5,601 bases of DNA from Deltaproteobacteria bacterium RBG_13_61_14. Its GTDB lineage: Bacteria > RBG-13-61-14. Numbering within the stretch: position 1 is the first letter of the stretch; each line of letters starts with the position of its first letter. Made by a program: the position numbers and the translations under genes. The DNA is taken from the NCBI GenBank assembly GCA_001797815.1, contig MGQK01000113.1, forward strand, positions 76,692-82,292. Reading direction: 5' to 3'. This document shows positions 1 to 4,469 of this stretch, piece by piece. The notes under the pieces are model-generated. The model ran no database searches. It saw only the letters and a program-made list of their open reading frames with translations, and was not told where the DNA came from.

Positions 1-604
1 AAAAGATGGACTCGCCCCGGGCGTCGCGCTCGGTGATCAGGTAACGCGCCTCGCCCCGCAGCATCCCGTCGTAAGCGTGTTCGATCCCTTCCAGCCCTTG
101 CGAGTCCACTCCGGCAAAGCCCAGGACATGGGCGGCCAGCGATCCGCCCGGGTAATAGCGCCGGCTCTCGGGAACCGTCCCGACCCCGGGCAGCTTCAGG
201 AGCCGGACCCGCTCCGCGCTTTCCGGATCGGTCTGGCGGATGACCCAGACAAAGGGGTCAGGGGAAGCCAGGGTTTGCCGGATTTCCCGGCTGCTCATGC
301 CCAGGGCTTTGGCCAGGCGCTGGGCGGTATCCGCGAGGTTGAGGACTTGATCCGGCCGGGAAAAAACGGAATAGCTCTCTTTGCTGACGGCCAGCTCGCG
401 CCGGGCCGAGTCATAAATGACGCCCCGGCGGGGCATGATCCGCTCCAGGTGCCGGTGCTGTTGCTCGGCGCGGCGGGAGAGCTTATCCGCCTCAAGGACC
501 TGGAACTGATAGGCCCGGGCCAAGATGGTGACGGCCAGGCCGTAAAACAGCACCAGGATAATCAGGATCCGTATTTTGACCCATTTTCCAATCTGGGAAT
601 TCAT
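1..604 (-). CDS. ftsI: FtsI-like class B penicillin-binding protein (transpeptidase), N-terminal part
   Basis: This is the first 201 codons of a septal peptidoglycan transpeptidase; the gene continues past the left edge, so the catalytic domain is not visible. The start ATG at 604-602 is the only start codon after an in-frame TAG upstream. A short cytoplasmic tail is followed by one membrane segment (about residues 11-29). A class B PBP dimerisation region follows, with RRGVIYD at 59-65 and the stretch from YYPGG (150) through AAHVLGFAGVD to GLEGIE (170-175), which is typical of FtsI/PBP2 proteins. The family crosslinks septal peptidoglycan with FtsW and the FtsQLB complex. The place directly after ftsL favours FtsI (or a SpoVD-like homologue) over the elongation PBP2. 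The ribosome site is poor: AAGGA lies only three bases before ATG, next to a strong hairpin. Unlike its neighbours, the gene does not overlap the gene before it. Confidence 0.9.
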   Translation of the reverse strand, partial: MNSQIGKWVKIRILIILVLFYGLAVTILARAYQFQVLEADKLSRRAEQQHRHLERIMPRRGVIYDSARRELAVSKESYSVFSRPDQVLNLADTAQRLAKALGMSSREIRQTLASPDPFVWVIRQTDPESAERVRLLKLPGVGTVPESRRYYPGGSLAAHVLGFAGVDSQGLEGIEHAYDGMLRGEARYLITERDARGESIF

Positions 605-908: not shown

Positions 909-1250
909 CTATTCGCCCCAAGGGTCCAGGATGCGGATCTGCTCGGGCGAAGGATACTTCAGCCCCAGCCGCTCCCGGGCCAAACGCTCGATGCGCTCCG
1001 GCGATTTCAAACGGGCCACCTCACCCCGCAGCTCCTCGTTCACTTTTTCCATCTGCTGGAGGGTCTCCGCGGTCCGGGATTGCTCATAGCCCACGCGCAC
1101 CGCCTGCAAGCGGCACCAGACATAAAACAAGGTGGCGGCCACCAGCACCACCACCGTAAGCAACACCGGCCCCAGCACCCAACCCTGCCGCACCCGCTGG
1201 CGGGAAAGGGTCCCGGAGCGAATCGCCCGGCCGGCCACCGTGGCGGTCAT
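909..1250 (-). CDS. ftsL: FtsL-like cell division protein
   Basis: This 113-residue protein has the standard FtsL/DivIC layout. A basic N-terminal tail of about 24 residues is followed by one membrane segment (about 25-45, rich in V, L and A). A periplasmic or extracellular coiled coil (about 48-82, rich in Q, E and L) comes next. The closing motif SPERIERLARERLGL (83-97) is the characteristic end of the DivIC/FtsL family. FtsL acts with FtsB and FtsQ to activate septal peptidoglycan synthesis by FtsW and FtsI. The ATG overlaps the rsmH stop as ATGA, and AAGGAG at 1258-1263 lies seven bases upstream. FtsL sequences diverge quickly, so the name rests on architecture and position after rsmH as well as on the end motif. 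Confidence 0.85.
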   Translation of the reverse strand: MTATVAGRAIRSGTLSRQRVRQGWVLGPVLLTVVVLVAATLFYVWCRLQAVRVGYEQSRTAETLQQMEKVNEELRGEVARLKSPERIERLARERLGLKYPSPEQIRILDPWGE

Positions 1251-2221
1251 GGCCGCGCTCCTTTTCCAGGCTCAAGCGCCACTCTCTCCGCCGCCCGCAA
1301 CTTAGCGCTGCGCGCCCGGGGGTTGCGCTCGATTTCCTCGGGCCGCGGCCGGAGCGGACGGCGGGTGAGGATGCGCAGCCGGGGCTGATTCCCGCACCGG
1401 CAGACCGGGAGCTCGGGCGGACAGACACATCCCCGCGCCTCCTCCCGGAAAAAGTCCTTGACCACCCGGTCTTCCAGGGAATGGTAGGTGAGCACGCACA
1501 CCCGGCCGAAAGGCTTCAGCCGGTCCGGAATTTGCCGCAGCCCGGCTTCCAGACTCTCGATTTCCTGGTTGACCAGGAGCCGCAGGGCCAGGAAGGTCTT
1601 GGTGGCAGGATGGATCTCACGCGGCCAGGCCCGGCGGGGGATGACTTCCTCCACCAGCCGGGCCAGCTCGGTGGTGGTCTGGAGCGGGCGCCCCGCTTCC
1701 CGCCGGCGGACCATGGCCCGGGCGATCGGACGGGCCCAGCGCCGTTCACCCGCCTGGCGGAAATTCCGCTCCAGTTCGGCGAGACTTAATTCTTGCAACA
1801 ATTCCTTAGCTCCCCGGGCCTCGGCCGGGTCCATCCGCATATCCAGCGGTCCCTCTTGGCCGAACCCGAATCCCCTCTTTGCACTTTTGAGCTGGTGCAG
1901 AGAGGTCCCTAGGTCAAGCAAAACCGAGTCAATCCTGGCAACCGACAGCCCGTCCAGGACTTTTCCCAGCCGGGCGAAATTATCTTGAATCAGAACCAGC
2001 CGGTCGCGGTAAGGGGCAAGCCGCTTCTCGGCTTCGGCATAAGCCTCGGGGTCGCGGTCCATCCCGATGACTCGGCCGCCGGGCCCCACCCGCTCGCAGA
2101 GCGCCCGGGCATGGCCGCCCCCGCCCACGGTGCCGTCCACCACCACCTGGCCGGGCTGCACCGCCAGGAGTTCAAGCACTTCTGGCAATAAGACCGGCTC
2201 ATGAAACGTGGCGGCCTCCAT
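1247..2221 (-). CDS. rsmH: 16S rRNA (cytosine(1402)-N(4))-methyltransferase RsmH (MraW)
   Basis: RsmH uses S-adenosylmethionine to methylate N4 of C1402 in the decoding centre of 16S rRNA. The 324-residue length is normal. HEPVLLPEVLELL (7-19) is the typical N-terminus. VDGTVGGGGHARAL (28-41) is the SAM-binding loop, and IGMDRDPEA follows at 52-60. LLDLGTS (101-107) leads to RGFGF and PLDMRMDP (125-132). TYHSLEDRVVK (245-255) and NPRARSAKLRAAERV (300-314) are family signatures. The two CxC pairs at 265/267 and 274/276 match the cysteine cluster found in many members. The consensus LDLGVSS reads LDLGTSL here, a mild change. The start overlaps the end of the STAS gene by 23 bases and GGAG directly abuts the ATG, so translation is probably coupled to the gene upstream. 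Confidence 0.97.
   Translation of the reverse strand: MEAATFHEPVLLPEVLELLAVQPGQVVVDGTVGGGGHARALCERVGPGGRVIGMDRDPEAYAEAEKRLAPYRDRLVLIQDNFARLGKVLDGLSVARIDSVLLDLGTSLHQLKSAKRGFGFGQEGPLDMRMDPAEARGAKELLQELSLAELERNFRQAGERRWARPIARAMVRRREAGRPLQTTTELARLVEEVIPRRAWPREIHPATKTFLALRLLVNQEIESLEAGLRQIPDRLKPFGRVCVLTYHSLEDRVVKDFFREEARGCVCPPELPVCRCGNQPRLRILTRRPLRPRPEEIERNPRARSAKLRAAERVALEPGKGARP
1258..1263 (-). promoter_or_regulatory. Ribosome binding site of ftsL
   Basis: AAGGAG on the minus strand lies inside the end of rsmH, seven bases before the ftsL ATG. It supports the start chosen for ftsL. Confidence 0.75.
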
Positions 2222-2600
2222 CTCCGGTCGGGCCGGATTTCAAACCCGGCCCCCTCTCCGGCCAAGGGCTGGCAAGAGCCTCTCCCACACTGGCGTAGCG
2301 CTCGACCAAATGATCCACGCCAAAGTCGTGCAGCCGGCCGCCGACCCGGCAAAGCCCGGTGGCCAGTTTGAGGTTGCCGCCCCTCCGGCGCAGCCAGGTC
2401 CAGCTCTCCAGGAGAAAGCCCATGCCCCGCTCGGAAATCCAGACCAGGTGGTCCAGGTCCAGCACCACGCAAAGCCGGCCCTCTTCCGCCATCTCGGCCA
2501 GGCAGTTGCGGAACTCGACCATGGCGGTGGGAGAAAAATCCCCCTCCATCTCGATCACACTCACCGGGCCGGGCTTCACGCGCATGGCGGTGGCGCTCAT
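2199..2600 (-). CDS. STAS-domain protein (anti-sigma factor antagonist-like) in the mra operon
   Basis: This 133-residue protein is largely one STAS domain (about residues 10-110), followed by a Pro/Gly-rich tail. VVLDLDHLVWI (45-55) is the central strand. ISERGMGFLLESW (55-67) is the strand-turn-helix that reads roughly I-D-S-S-G-L-G in SpoIIAA. RRRGGNLKLA (71-80) and the FGVDHLVERYASVGEAL end (93-109) also match. STAS proteins of the SpoIIAA/RsbV type bind anti-sigma kinases and are switched by phosphorylation of the serine before that Gly. Here the position is Arg58 and the preceding Asp-Ser is Ser-Glu, so the usual phosphoswitch appears lost. The start overlaps the mraZ stop as ATGA, with GGAG at 2607-2610 six bases upstream. 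No kinase, phosphatase or sigma factor is in the window. The target is unknown; co-expression suggests a link to wall synthesis or division. Confidence 0.85.
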   Translation of the reverse strand: MSATAMRVKPGPVSVIEMEGDFSPTAMVEFRNCLAEMAEEGRLCVVLDLDHLVWISERGMGFLLESWTWLRRRGGNLKLATGLCRVGGRLHDFGVDHLVERYASVGEALASPWPERGPGLKSGPTGDGGRHVS

Positions 2601-3088
2601 TTTTGGCTCCGGTGCAGCTCCGCGAGATAGCCGCGGTTGGCCGCAAAACTCTCTTCCCATTGCCGGTAAGCCTCTTCCCAGCGCGGCTTGGGCCAGATCT
2701 CGAAATGCGTCTGCGCGCCCATCAGCACCGCCTCCAGGTTGCCGTCCAGACCCAGCGCCGTCCGCCAGCGCGGGGGCACCAGGATCCGGCCCTGGCGGTC
2801 CACGTCGGCCTCGAGCTGGTTGGCGCGCAGATAATGGAGATAGCTGAAAACGCGGTCGTCATCCTGATCGAGCAGGCGGTGTTGCTCTTCCCGCACCTGC
2901 CAGGCATCTTCCGGAAAGACGTCCAGCCGGTTCGGGAAACGCACCATGATCACCCGGTTGCACTGGCGATCATCCAACACTTCCCGAAACCGGGAGGGAA
3001 GAATGATCCGGCCTTGCCGCGTGATGGTGTGCTCGTAGGTGCCGCGGAAGACACGAGTCGGAGAGAGCATGGCGATTTCGCTATCCAT
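2597..3088 (-). CDS. mraZ: Transcriptional regulator MraZ
   Basis: MraZ is a DNA-binding protein of the SpoVT/AbrB fold that forms rings and controls the division and cell-wall operon it heads. From the chosen start the protein is 163 residues, slightly longer than usual, with two swapped-hairpin repeats. The first is FRGTYEHTITRQGRIILPSRFREVL (from about residue 14) and the second is LEADVDRQGRILVPPRWRTAL (from about 92). The second keeps the D-x-x-G-R core; the first has Thr in place of Asp. The longest frame begins at a GTG at 3118-3116, but that codon lies at or upstream of the predicted transcription start and inside the operator repeats, so I reject it. ATG 3088 gives a leader of about 27 bases with GGAG 14 bases upstream. 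ATG 3070, six residues before FRG, is equally possible, though neither has an ideal ribosome site. The gene overlaps the STAS gene by 4 bases. Confidence 0.93.
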   Translation of the reverse strand: MDSEIAMLSPTRVFRGTYEHTITRQGRIILPSRFREVLDDRQCNRVIMVRFPNRLDVFPEDAWQVREEQHRLLDQDDDRVFSYLHYLRANQLEADVDRQGRILVPPRWRTALGLDGNLEAVLMGAQTHFEIWPKPRWEEAYRQWEESFAANRGYLAELHRSQK

Positions 3089-3117
3089 TTTTAGCCATTT
3101 GGCTCCAATTTGCTCCA
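3083..3117 (-). promoter_or_regulatory. Candidate MraZ operator: four pentamers at 10-bp spacing
   Basis: On the minus strand TGGAG (3117-3113), TGGAG (3107-3103), TGGCT (3097-3093) and TGGAT (3087-3083) start exactly 10 bp apart. A fifth TGGAG at 3138-3134, inside the promoter spacer, is 21 bp further upstream. In E. coli, MraZ binds three TGGGN direct repeats separated by five bases in the leader of its own operon. The spacing and position match; the repeat core differs at the fourth base. Binding here would cover the transcription start and repress the operon. The last box overlaps the chosen mraZ start codon. Confidence 0.65.
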
Positions 3118-3121
3118 CTTT

Positions 3122-3150: not shown

Positions 3151-3298
3151 GCATTTTCTCAATCTATAGAAATTTTTTAGAAATCCATAGGTTGTATTTT
3201 CAATATTTGGTATAGGCAAGCAATTGACACACTATATGTTGTGGATAGAGGCGGGTGAATCACAGGATATAAATTGGCAAAATTATTGAACAAATACT

Positions 3299-3360
3299 AG
3301 GGACAGCCCCCGGTATTCTTATTTTTTCCTTTGCAACACTGGCGGCTGTCCCTGGTATTC
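3299..3360. repeat. GGGACAG inverted repeat with internal direct repeats
   Basis: AGGGACAGCC (3299-3308) and GGCTGTCCCT (3344-3353) are perfect 10-base inverted repeats separated by 35 bases. Each is followed by GGTATTC, at 3312-3318 and 3354-3360, giving a nested direct repeat. The GGGACAG core is shared with the hairpin at 613-638, about 2.7 kb away. It looks like a REP-type palindromic element or its remnant. No transposase frame lies inside. Confidence 0.7.
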
Positions 3361-3418: not shown

Positions 3419-3889
3419 ATGAAAACCAAGCTTTCGGCCCTCCTGGCCGTCTCCTTTCTCCTGGCCCTTCCGGCCTGCGGCATGCGCCAGAACCCGACGC
3501 TGGCCGACTACCCGGACCACCCCGAGCTCTGGCAGGCCGCCATCCGCTTCTACGACTTCCTAGAGCTCAAGCAGCTCGACGGCTACTACGACCAGCCCGG
3601 CCTCCGCGGCTTCTTCCCCAATCGTGAGACATATTACGATTTCCTCGACACCGTGCTCCCGCCCATGCGCGAGCGCCGCTTCGAAAGGAACCGCGTCCTC
3701 GATTACCGCATCCGGGACATCCAACCGGAAGGCGAGCAGGCCCAAATCCGCGTCACCTTCCTCTCCGACGATGTCCTGCCCTTCGGCAAGGTGGTGACCG
3801 TCGAGCACCAGTGGGTCCTGGGCGCCGAGGGCTGGTACCCGGGCAAGGTCCAGGCCCCCAAGGCCCACTTCTGGGATAAAATCCGCTGA
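3419..3889 (+). CDS. Predicted lipoprotein of unknown function
   Basis: This is a 156-residue secreted lipoprotein and the only plus-strand gene. It has a short basic N-terminus (MKTK), a hydrophobic core (residues 6-17) and the lipobox LPAC, so cleavage and lipidation are expected at Cys20. Gly follows the cysteine, with no Asp at +2, which in a diderm would suit outer-membrane sorting. The mature part starts with helix-like, aromatic-rich sequence (PELWQAAIRFYDFLELKQ, from about 35). It continues with alternating strand-like segments (RVLDYRIRDI, AQIRVTFLSD, VTVEHQWVLGAEGWYPGK). This order of helices then a curved sheet resembles NTF2/SnoaL-like folds, but I do not recognise the family and the fold is only inferred. 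The gene is alone, divergent from mraZ and convergent with the next gene. No catalytic motif is evident. Confidence 0.85.
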   Translation: MKTKLSALLAVSFLLALPACGMRQNPTLADYPDHPELWQAAIRFYDFLELKQLDGYYDQPGLRGFFPNRETYYDFLDTVLPPMRERRFERNRVLDYRIRDIQPEGEQAQIRVTFLSDDVLPFGKVVTVEHQWVLGAEGWYPGKVQAPKAHFWDKIR

Positions 3890-4023: not shown

Positions 4024-4044
4024 AAGATCAGACAAACGGATCTT
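4024..4044 (-). terminator. Weak hairpin at the 3' end of the EF-Tu-like gene
   Basis: AAGATC and GATCTT form a 6-bp stem with a 9-base loop that begins at the stop codon of the gene at 4044-4298. The following sequence, AAGCTTT, is only a poor U-tract. Confidence 0.25.
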
Positions 4045-4298
4045 CAGGGCAAGACTTTATACACCGTGTCGTGCTCGCGGACGCGGTCCTGGACCTTGAT
4101 GCCCACGTCATCGCCGGCCTTGGCCTCGGTCAGGACCTGCTTCTCGATCTGGATCGAGTCCACCGTCTGCTCGAAGTTGGTGTGGGCGCCCTCGATGGAG
4201 ATGCGGTCGCCCACCTTGAGCGTGTCGCTGAGCTTGATCGCGGCCACGCTCACCTTGCCGAAGAAATGAACCACCTTGCCGACTTCTTGCTTTTGCAT
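4044..4298 (-). CDS. Small stand-alone EF-Tu domain-II-like beta-barrel protein
   Basis: The 84-residue product has only the fold of domain II of translational GTPases: no G-domain motifs are present. VGKVVHFFGKVSVAAIKLSDTLKVGDRISIEG (6-37) has the first strands and the L-K-V-G-D turn seen in EF-Tu and IF2. FEQTVDSIQIEKQ (42-54) and AKAGDDVGIKVQDRVREHDTVYKV (59-82) complete the barrel. In elongation factors this domain contacts aminoacyl-tRNA or the ribosome. Similar short proteins are often annotated as translation elongation factor-like; their function is not known to me. The start is firm: AAGGAG (4307-4312) sits eight bases before ATG. The gene lies downstream of trpB on the same strand, but a long inverted repeat fills the space between them, so co-expression is doubtful. 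Confidence 0.85.
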   Translation of the reverse strand: MQKQEVGKVVHFFGKVSVAAIKLSDTLKVGDRISIEGAHTNFEQTVDSIQIEKQVLTEAKAGDDVGIKVQDRVREHDTVYKVLP

Positions 4299-4312: not shown

Positions 4313-4320
4313 CTGAAGCA

Positions 4321-4464
4321 GGCCTTAGGCGTTGGACATTAGGCTTTAGACCTTAGGCGTTAGGCGTTAGTCAGCCGGAAAAATTATTCAATAATGTAAC
4401 ACAAAATCTACGGTCCAAATTCTAATGCCTAAAGTCTAAAGCCTGACGCCCAATGCCTAAAGCC
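4321..4464. repeat. 43-bp inverted repeat built from 7-base units
   Basis: Positions 4321-4363 and the reverse complement of 4422-4464 agree at 36 of 43 bases without gaps, and all seven differences are transitions. The loop is 58 bases, AT-rich, with its own palindrome ATTATT-C-AATAAT at 4383-4395. Both arms are made of heptamers. The left arm (extended to 4373) holds seven consecutive units of the TTAGGCN type from 4325; the right arm holds six of the complementary CTAANGC type from 4422 to 4463. The structure fills the gap between the trpB stop and the next ribosome site. It may act as a terminator, RNA-processing site or mobile repeat. Confidence 0.85.
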
Positions 4465-4469
4465 TTCTT

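Follow-up and report, generated by a model that had tools for sequence, protein, structure and literature searches.

A candidate STAS-domain component of the dcw cluster, encoded between mraZ and rsmH and lacking the phosphoacceptor serine

SpoIIAA and RsbV are single-domain STAS proteins, which are encoded in a kinase/sigma operon and have their switch motif where helix 2 begins. The phosphorylated residue of SpoIIAA is S58, the first serine of D57-S58-S59-G60 (PMC11418112), and STAS proteins broadly conserve a Ser or Thr at this phosphosite (PMC7367683). MlaB is likewise a stand-alone STAS protein, whose helix 2 acts on a partner other than a sigma regulator; it keeps Thr52 and is encoded with mlaFED. 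Introduction of Glu at this site of MlaB (T52E) weakens partner binding, MlaF being largely lost (PMC7367683), and the S56D form of SypA does not support biofilm formation (PMC10120452). In B. subtilis, phosphorylation-independent signalling by the stressosome exists (PMC3944199).

The canonical dcw cluster (mraZ-rsmH-ftsL-ftsI-murE-...) has the same gene order as the locus described here on both sides of an insert, but is without the extra STAS gene that here separates mraZ from rsmH. To our knowledge, the regulation of MraZ, and the reason why mraZ so often heads the division cluster, are open questions. No STAS gene between mraZ and rsmH was found in a study of dcw evolution that was consulted (PMC8871954). 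A literature search for mraZ together with STAS, with subscription papers mostly outside its coverage, returned nothing relevant, and no description of an mraZ-linked STAS protein without a phosphosite was found in the literature or family libraries searched. A protein whose gene lies directly after mraZ in many lineages, and which nearly always lacks the phospho-switch, is a candidate partner of MraZ or the divisome. STAS proteins, otherwise associated with stress and sporulation switches, would thereby have a fixed slot in the core division cluster as well.

Layout of the cluster around the STAS gene

The window (the whole stretch of 5,601 nucleotides analysed, G000:C113:76692-82292) carries the cluster genes on its minus strand.

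1-604, minus strand: ftsI, start only, continuing beyond the window (PBP_dimer PF03717, 71 bits)
909-1250, minus strand: ftsL/divIC-like gene (Pfam PF04977, 39.2 bits; PF04999, 23.0 bits)
1247-2221, minus strand: rsmH (mraW) (Pfam PF01795, 340.8 bits)
2199-2221, minus strand: 23-nt overlap in the sequence between the end of the STAS gene and the start of rsmH (2221)
2199-2600, minus strand: STAS-domain gene, 133 codons for 133 aa (Pfam PF01740, 33.7 bits)
2424-2435, minus strand: codons of S56-E57-R58-G59, aligned to SpoIIAA D57-S58-S59-G60 (chains 1th8, 1tid and 1auz)
2597-2600, minus strand: ATGA in the sequence, where the stop codon of mraZ and the ATG of the STAS gene overlap by 4 nt
2597-3118, minus strand: mraZ, longest ORF with a GTG start (Pfam PF02381, 85.2 bits)

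The STAS reading frame extends from an ATG at 2600-2598 to a TGA finishing at 2199. The insertion of a STAS gene with overlaps of 4 and 23 bases, as originally predicted, is borne out at 2597-2600 and 2199-2221. An internal ATG such as that at 3070 may be the true start of mraZ. The GC content of the STAS gene by codon position (0.67/0.51/0.81) matches that of the neighbouring genes, its third-position value being of the coding type. The gene is intact and probably co-translated with its neighbours; the intact frame, the coding-type GC3 and the tight overlaps speak against decay as a pseudogene, which had been named as a sign against a distinct role. Beyond the window, the cluster continues with Mur ligase, mraY, ftsW, murG and ftsQ-like ORFs (named from sequence alone), and by these assignments the dcw cluster is complete around mraZ-STAS-rsmH. 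No kinase gene was seen in the cluster, and no transporter gene was recognised near the STAS gene, either by a Pfam search of the window or among the downstream ORFs judged from their sequences.

Fold and phosphosite of the window protein

The window protein is assigned to the STAS family by Pfam PF01740 (33.7 bits, E 3e-8; cut-off 22.6 bits). Its AlphaFold2 model (mean pLDDT 77.7, from seven sequences) has the STAS topology; RsbV and SpoIIAA structures were matched, and the best PDB match is 1vc1 (TMt 0.83). An mraZ-linked protein from Candidatus Hydrogenedentota is also modelled as SpoIIAA-like (pLDDT 94.4, TM 0.90 to SpoIIAA 1th8). The single-domain fold (TM about 0.7-0.9 by prediction), its topology and the location of the motif at the N-terminus of helix 2 are common to SpoIIAA/RsbV and these proteins. 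The window protein scores below the NCBIfam cut-offs of the anti-sigma antagonist family TIGR00377 (24.9 bits against 53.45) and of TIGR02886 (12.2 bits against 114.75), whereas the members from Candidatus Abyssobacteria and Hydrogenedentota that were tested exceed that of TIGR00377 (61-70 bits). It has no match to NCBIfam MlaB, and the mlaFE neighbours and conserved Thr of MlaB are not found: the gene lies in the dcw cluster next to mraZ and rsmH and encodes Glu at the site. The window protein is a STAS family member that departs from anti-sigma antagonists both at the phosphosite and in its NCBIfam scores.

The switch motif reads I55-S-E-R-G-M-G61, as had been described for residues 55-61. 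SpoIIAA chains in the PDB, among them 1tid, whose reading MDASGLG we take to be the S58A mutant, place D57 on S56, S58 on E57 and S59 on R58, and the identical register is obtained when a member from Hydrogenedentota is aligned to SpoIIAA (E 4.5e-10). Because S58 is set on E57 in this alignment, it is E57 that occupies the place of the phosphoserine. The original prediction was therefore right in that the phosphoacceptor serine and the adjacent Asp are missing, but its assignment of Arg to the place of the phosphorylated serine was one residue off. By this alignment the phosphoacceptor is absent from the window protein, with Glu in its stead and Ser instead of the preceding Asp. SpoIIAA and RsbV keep the phosphorylated Ser, whereas most mraZ-linked relatives of the window protein have Tyr there, and the Asp preceding the site is usually Ser or Asn in the linked proteins. 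YtvA likewise lacks the phosphoacceptor and has Glu at the equivalent place. YtvA and the stressosome proteins RsbR and RsbS also have STAS domains, in a complex able to signal without phosphorylation; these domains reside within RsbR/RsbS stressosomes or are fused to sensors, whereas the window protein is stand-alone and no stressosome gene was seen nearby.

The mraZ-STAS-rsmH order and its phosphosite in other lineages

Distant loci were found by comparing the positions of MraZ and STAS matches over distant genomes and by further searches. The order mraZ-STAS-rsmH occurs in at least 11 lineages, including loci in genomes G003, G058, the group G156/G008/G295 and G206, the STAS gene of the last lying about 400 nt downstream of mraZ. 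It is present in all three genomes of Candidatus Abyssobacteria (G026, G173, G311), a class within Hydrogenedentota according to NCBI; G173, G311 and the Hydrogenedentota loci were reached with a narrower alignment as query. Candidatus Hydrogenedentota have the linked STAS gene in 64 of 68 genomes. A strong STAS match was obtained in 65 of the 68, including all 38 of good quality, and 62 of these 65 matches have mraZ before and rsmH after, two lie at a contig end with rsmH retained, and one is unlinked. A separate survey of 78 mraZ-rsmH intervals, picked by MraZ score alone, yielded five further STAS inserts (G032/G314, G133, G211, G093), the remaining intervals being mostly short. The neighbourhood check proposed with the original prediction thus showed that both the gene and the non-Ser site recur in many lineages.

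The mraZ-rsmH slot was found to hold other genes as well. G068 has a MerR-type HTH gene there (L207:718-966, plus strand; Pfam 38 bits), and G215 a HisKA-like helical protein with a sub-threshold score (19.9 against 26.9 bits), which is resembled by a helical ORF without Pfam match in G074 (both on the minus strand; loci L234/L244). Regulatory genes may thus tend to occupy this position. Small ORFs in the slot of G089, G286 and G175 (L189, L191, L197) have a similar-looking E-x-L/F-K/R-K/R-I/M/V-R stretch; the two scanned, those of L189 and L197, have no Pfam match.

The phosphosite was compared at position 58 (SpoIIAA numbering) between 72 distinct mraZ-linked and 62 unlinked STAS proteins. 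Ser/Thr is absent from this position in 71 of the 72 linked proteins, the sole exception being a Ser in L170, whereas it is present in 61 of the 62 unlinked ones (Fisher p 4e-36, a value that overstates independence because the linked rows are mostly from Hydrogenedentota). Counted by lineage, 11 of 11 linked groups are without Ser/Thr as a rule, and the five STAS inserts of the survey, in which loci were chosen by MraZ alone, all lack it. Since groups were defined by linkage and not by motif, and the same models readily found ordinary DSSG proteins, the loss was not favoured by the way the proteins were searched for. Tyr occupies the position in 53 of the 72 linked proteins; the linked motifs include SERG (window), SHRS, DGRD, NYMG/NYTG, SYMG, NYRG and SLNV, and those of the survey HFET, HFKA, SYRD and NFLS. 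Position 58 is the column with the greatest difference between linked and unlinked proteins (JS divergence 0.95). E65, retained in the window protein, is near-invariant in the linked proteins (90% Glu, 8% Asp), against mostly small residues in the unlinked ones.

The window protein falls in the linked group by its position as the mraZ-rsmH gene and by its missing Ser/Thr. Scored without the motif columns, it fits the linked and unlinked models about equally (55.0 and 55.9 bits), and its placement in the group therefore rests on position and motif. Among the mraZ-linked proteins defined in this way, that of the window is divergent and carries Glu. A search of GTDB contigs with the window protein alone gave no match. 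The searches turned up no close homologue of it, and the dN/dS figures given below come from linked genes of other lineages. A second match in its own genome (G000:C127, L032) was considered as a decayed paralogue and rejected, being low-complexity with stops.

Proposed role and competing explanations

On balance we favour, with somewhat better than even confidence, a single-domain STAS protein of SpoIIAA fold that would be co-translated with MraZ and RsmH and serve as a phosphorylation-independent adaptor or regulator in the dcw operon. The gene is probably an overlooked and phosphorylation-independent component of the dcw cluster. The interaction face is expected at the N-end of helix 2. With the phosphoacceptor missing, kinases of the RsbW/SpoIIAB type and phosphatases of the SpoIIE type could not switch this face, and hence the protein would act as a constant, phosphorylation-independent binding partner, whose dose would follow expression of the division operon. 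The window copy, having Glu at the phosphosite, might be permanently in something like the phosphorylated state, since Glu or Asp at this site imitates phosphate in the relatives MlaB (T52E) and SypA (S56D). MraZ is tentatively put forward as the likeliest partner, for the sole reason that its gene is nearly always the adjoining one upstream; other products of the dcw cluster, or a protein encoded elsewhere, rank behind it. It is possible, at a similarly low level of confidence, that a widespread, unrecognised dcw gene encodes a dedicated STAS regulator, which binds MraZ or another division protein without a phospho-switch and thereby governs how the division operon is expressed or how active it is. 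Almost all Hydrogenedentota would have retained this gene, and many other lineages would have recruited it to the slot between mraZ and rsmH.

The best structural matches are SpoIIAA and RsbV in kinase complexes, which would suit a remnant of a partner-switching or stressosome-like system, in which a degenerate anti-sigma antagonist links stress signalling to the division operon and a HATPase kinase is sequestered constitutively or, with Glu at the site, never; phosphorylation-independent signalling by the B. subtilis stressosome (PMC3944199) also fits. We regard this as unlikely. A HATPase search of the genome found a single strong HATPase_c_2 domain, which is part of a GAF-SpoIIE-HATPase fusion. 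Between this fusion and an Mla operon of mlaE permease, ABC ATPase and mlaD lies a STAS gene with the ordinary DSSG motif (L039:2643-7623, G000:C73), an arrangement that suggests that lipid transport is controlled by partner switching in this genome. As the only strong HATPase_c_2 domain is fused and has its own DSSG STAS neighbour, no free kinase is evident with which the window protein might form a partner switch, and the link to partner switching that had been proposed is unsupported in this genome. The lack of any kinase among the genes seen in the dcw cluster and the score of the window protein below the anti-sigma antagonist cut-off (24.9 against 53.45 bits) also argue against it.

The gene could instead be a passenger, recently acquired or decaying in the mraZ-rsmH interval under relaxed constraint, with the motif changed by drift. 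The phylum comparison covered three genomes; the other two, of the same order and another family, have no mraZ-linked STAS gene, mraZ running directly into rsmH, and the one STAS domain present in one of them belongs to a long ORF at another place. Because these two, the nearest relatives compared, lack the gene, an outcome that had been named beforehand as a refuting one, the view of it as a settled operon member is weakened for the lineage of the window, although the order recurs in many other lineages. The window protein also has an odd composition and the longest branch of the STAS tree (about 3.3-3.5), and STAS-bearing lineages are scattered over the RsmH tree (at least 10 changes; shuffles gave 19.8), a pattern that does not establish that the gene was gained once or passed down purely vertically. 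In the STAS tree, nearly all linked proteins come together when the motif columns are included; the grouping weakens without them, one clade being not rejected (p-AU 0.156), and no single origin is claimed for this reason. A passenger is nevertheless improbable, given the intact ORF with coding-type GC3 and tight overlaps, the retention of E65 and core residues, and purifying selection on the arrangement elsewhere. Purifying selection acts strongly on linked STAS genes, as judged from close pairs, for example in Hydrogenedentota (dN/dS about 0.02-0.22); these values are about as low as those of mraZ and rsmH, which indicates that the linked genes are maintained.

The prevalence of Tyr at the exact phosphosite (53 of 72 linked proteins) raises the idea of an alternative switch, in which a bacterial tyrosine kinase phosphorylates the Tyr, or some other modification takes place there, and Glu locks the window protein. 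However, maintained-looking relatives have Phe, Asn, His, Leu, Gly, Cys and others at the site, a variety that fits loss of the switch better than a new one and makes such a modification distinctly improbable. An MlaB-like or SulP-type STAS subunit that serves a transporter and lies in the dcw cluster by chance is very improbable, for although the fold is common to STAS proteins and Mla and SLC26 STAS structures appeared in the fold search, the Mla operon of this genome has its own DSSG STAS neighbour, NCBIfam MlaB is not matched, and no transporter gene was recognised nearby.

Other features of the window lie outside the STAS gene. A divergently oriented 156-aa lipoprotein-like ORF without Pfam match is located upstream of mraZ (3419-3889, plus strand), followed by a gene whose 84-aa product looks like an isolated domain 2 of EF-Tu (4044-4298, minus strand; 25.1 bits, below the Pfam cut-off of 30.3). 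Two palindromes with a common GGGACAG/CTGTCCC (613-638 and 3293-3359) flank the ftsL-mraZ stretch and may represent two copies of a REP-like element that is dispersed. A 48-nt imperfect inverted repeat (83%) made up of TTAGGCxTTAG-like units (4316-4469) lies in the interval from the EF-Tu-like gene to trpB.
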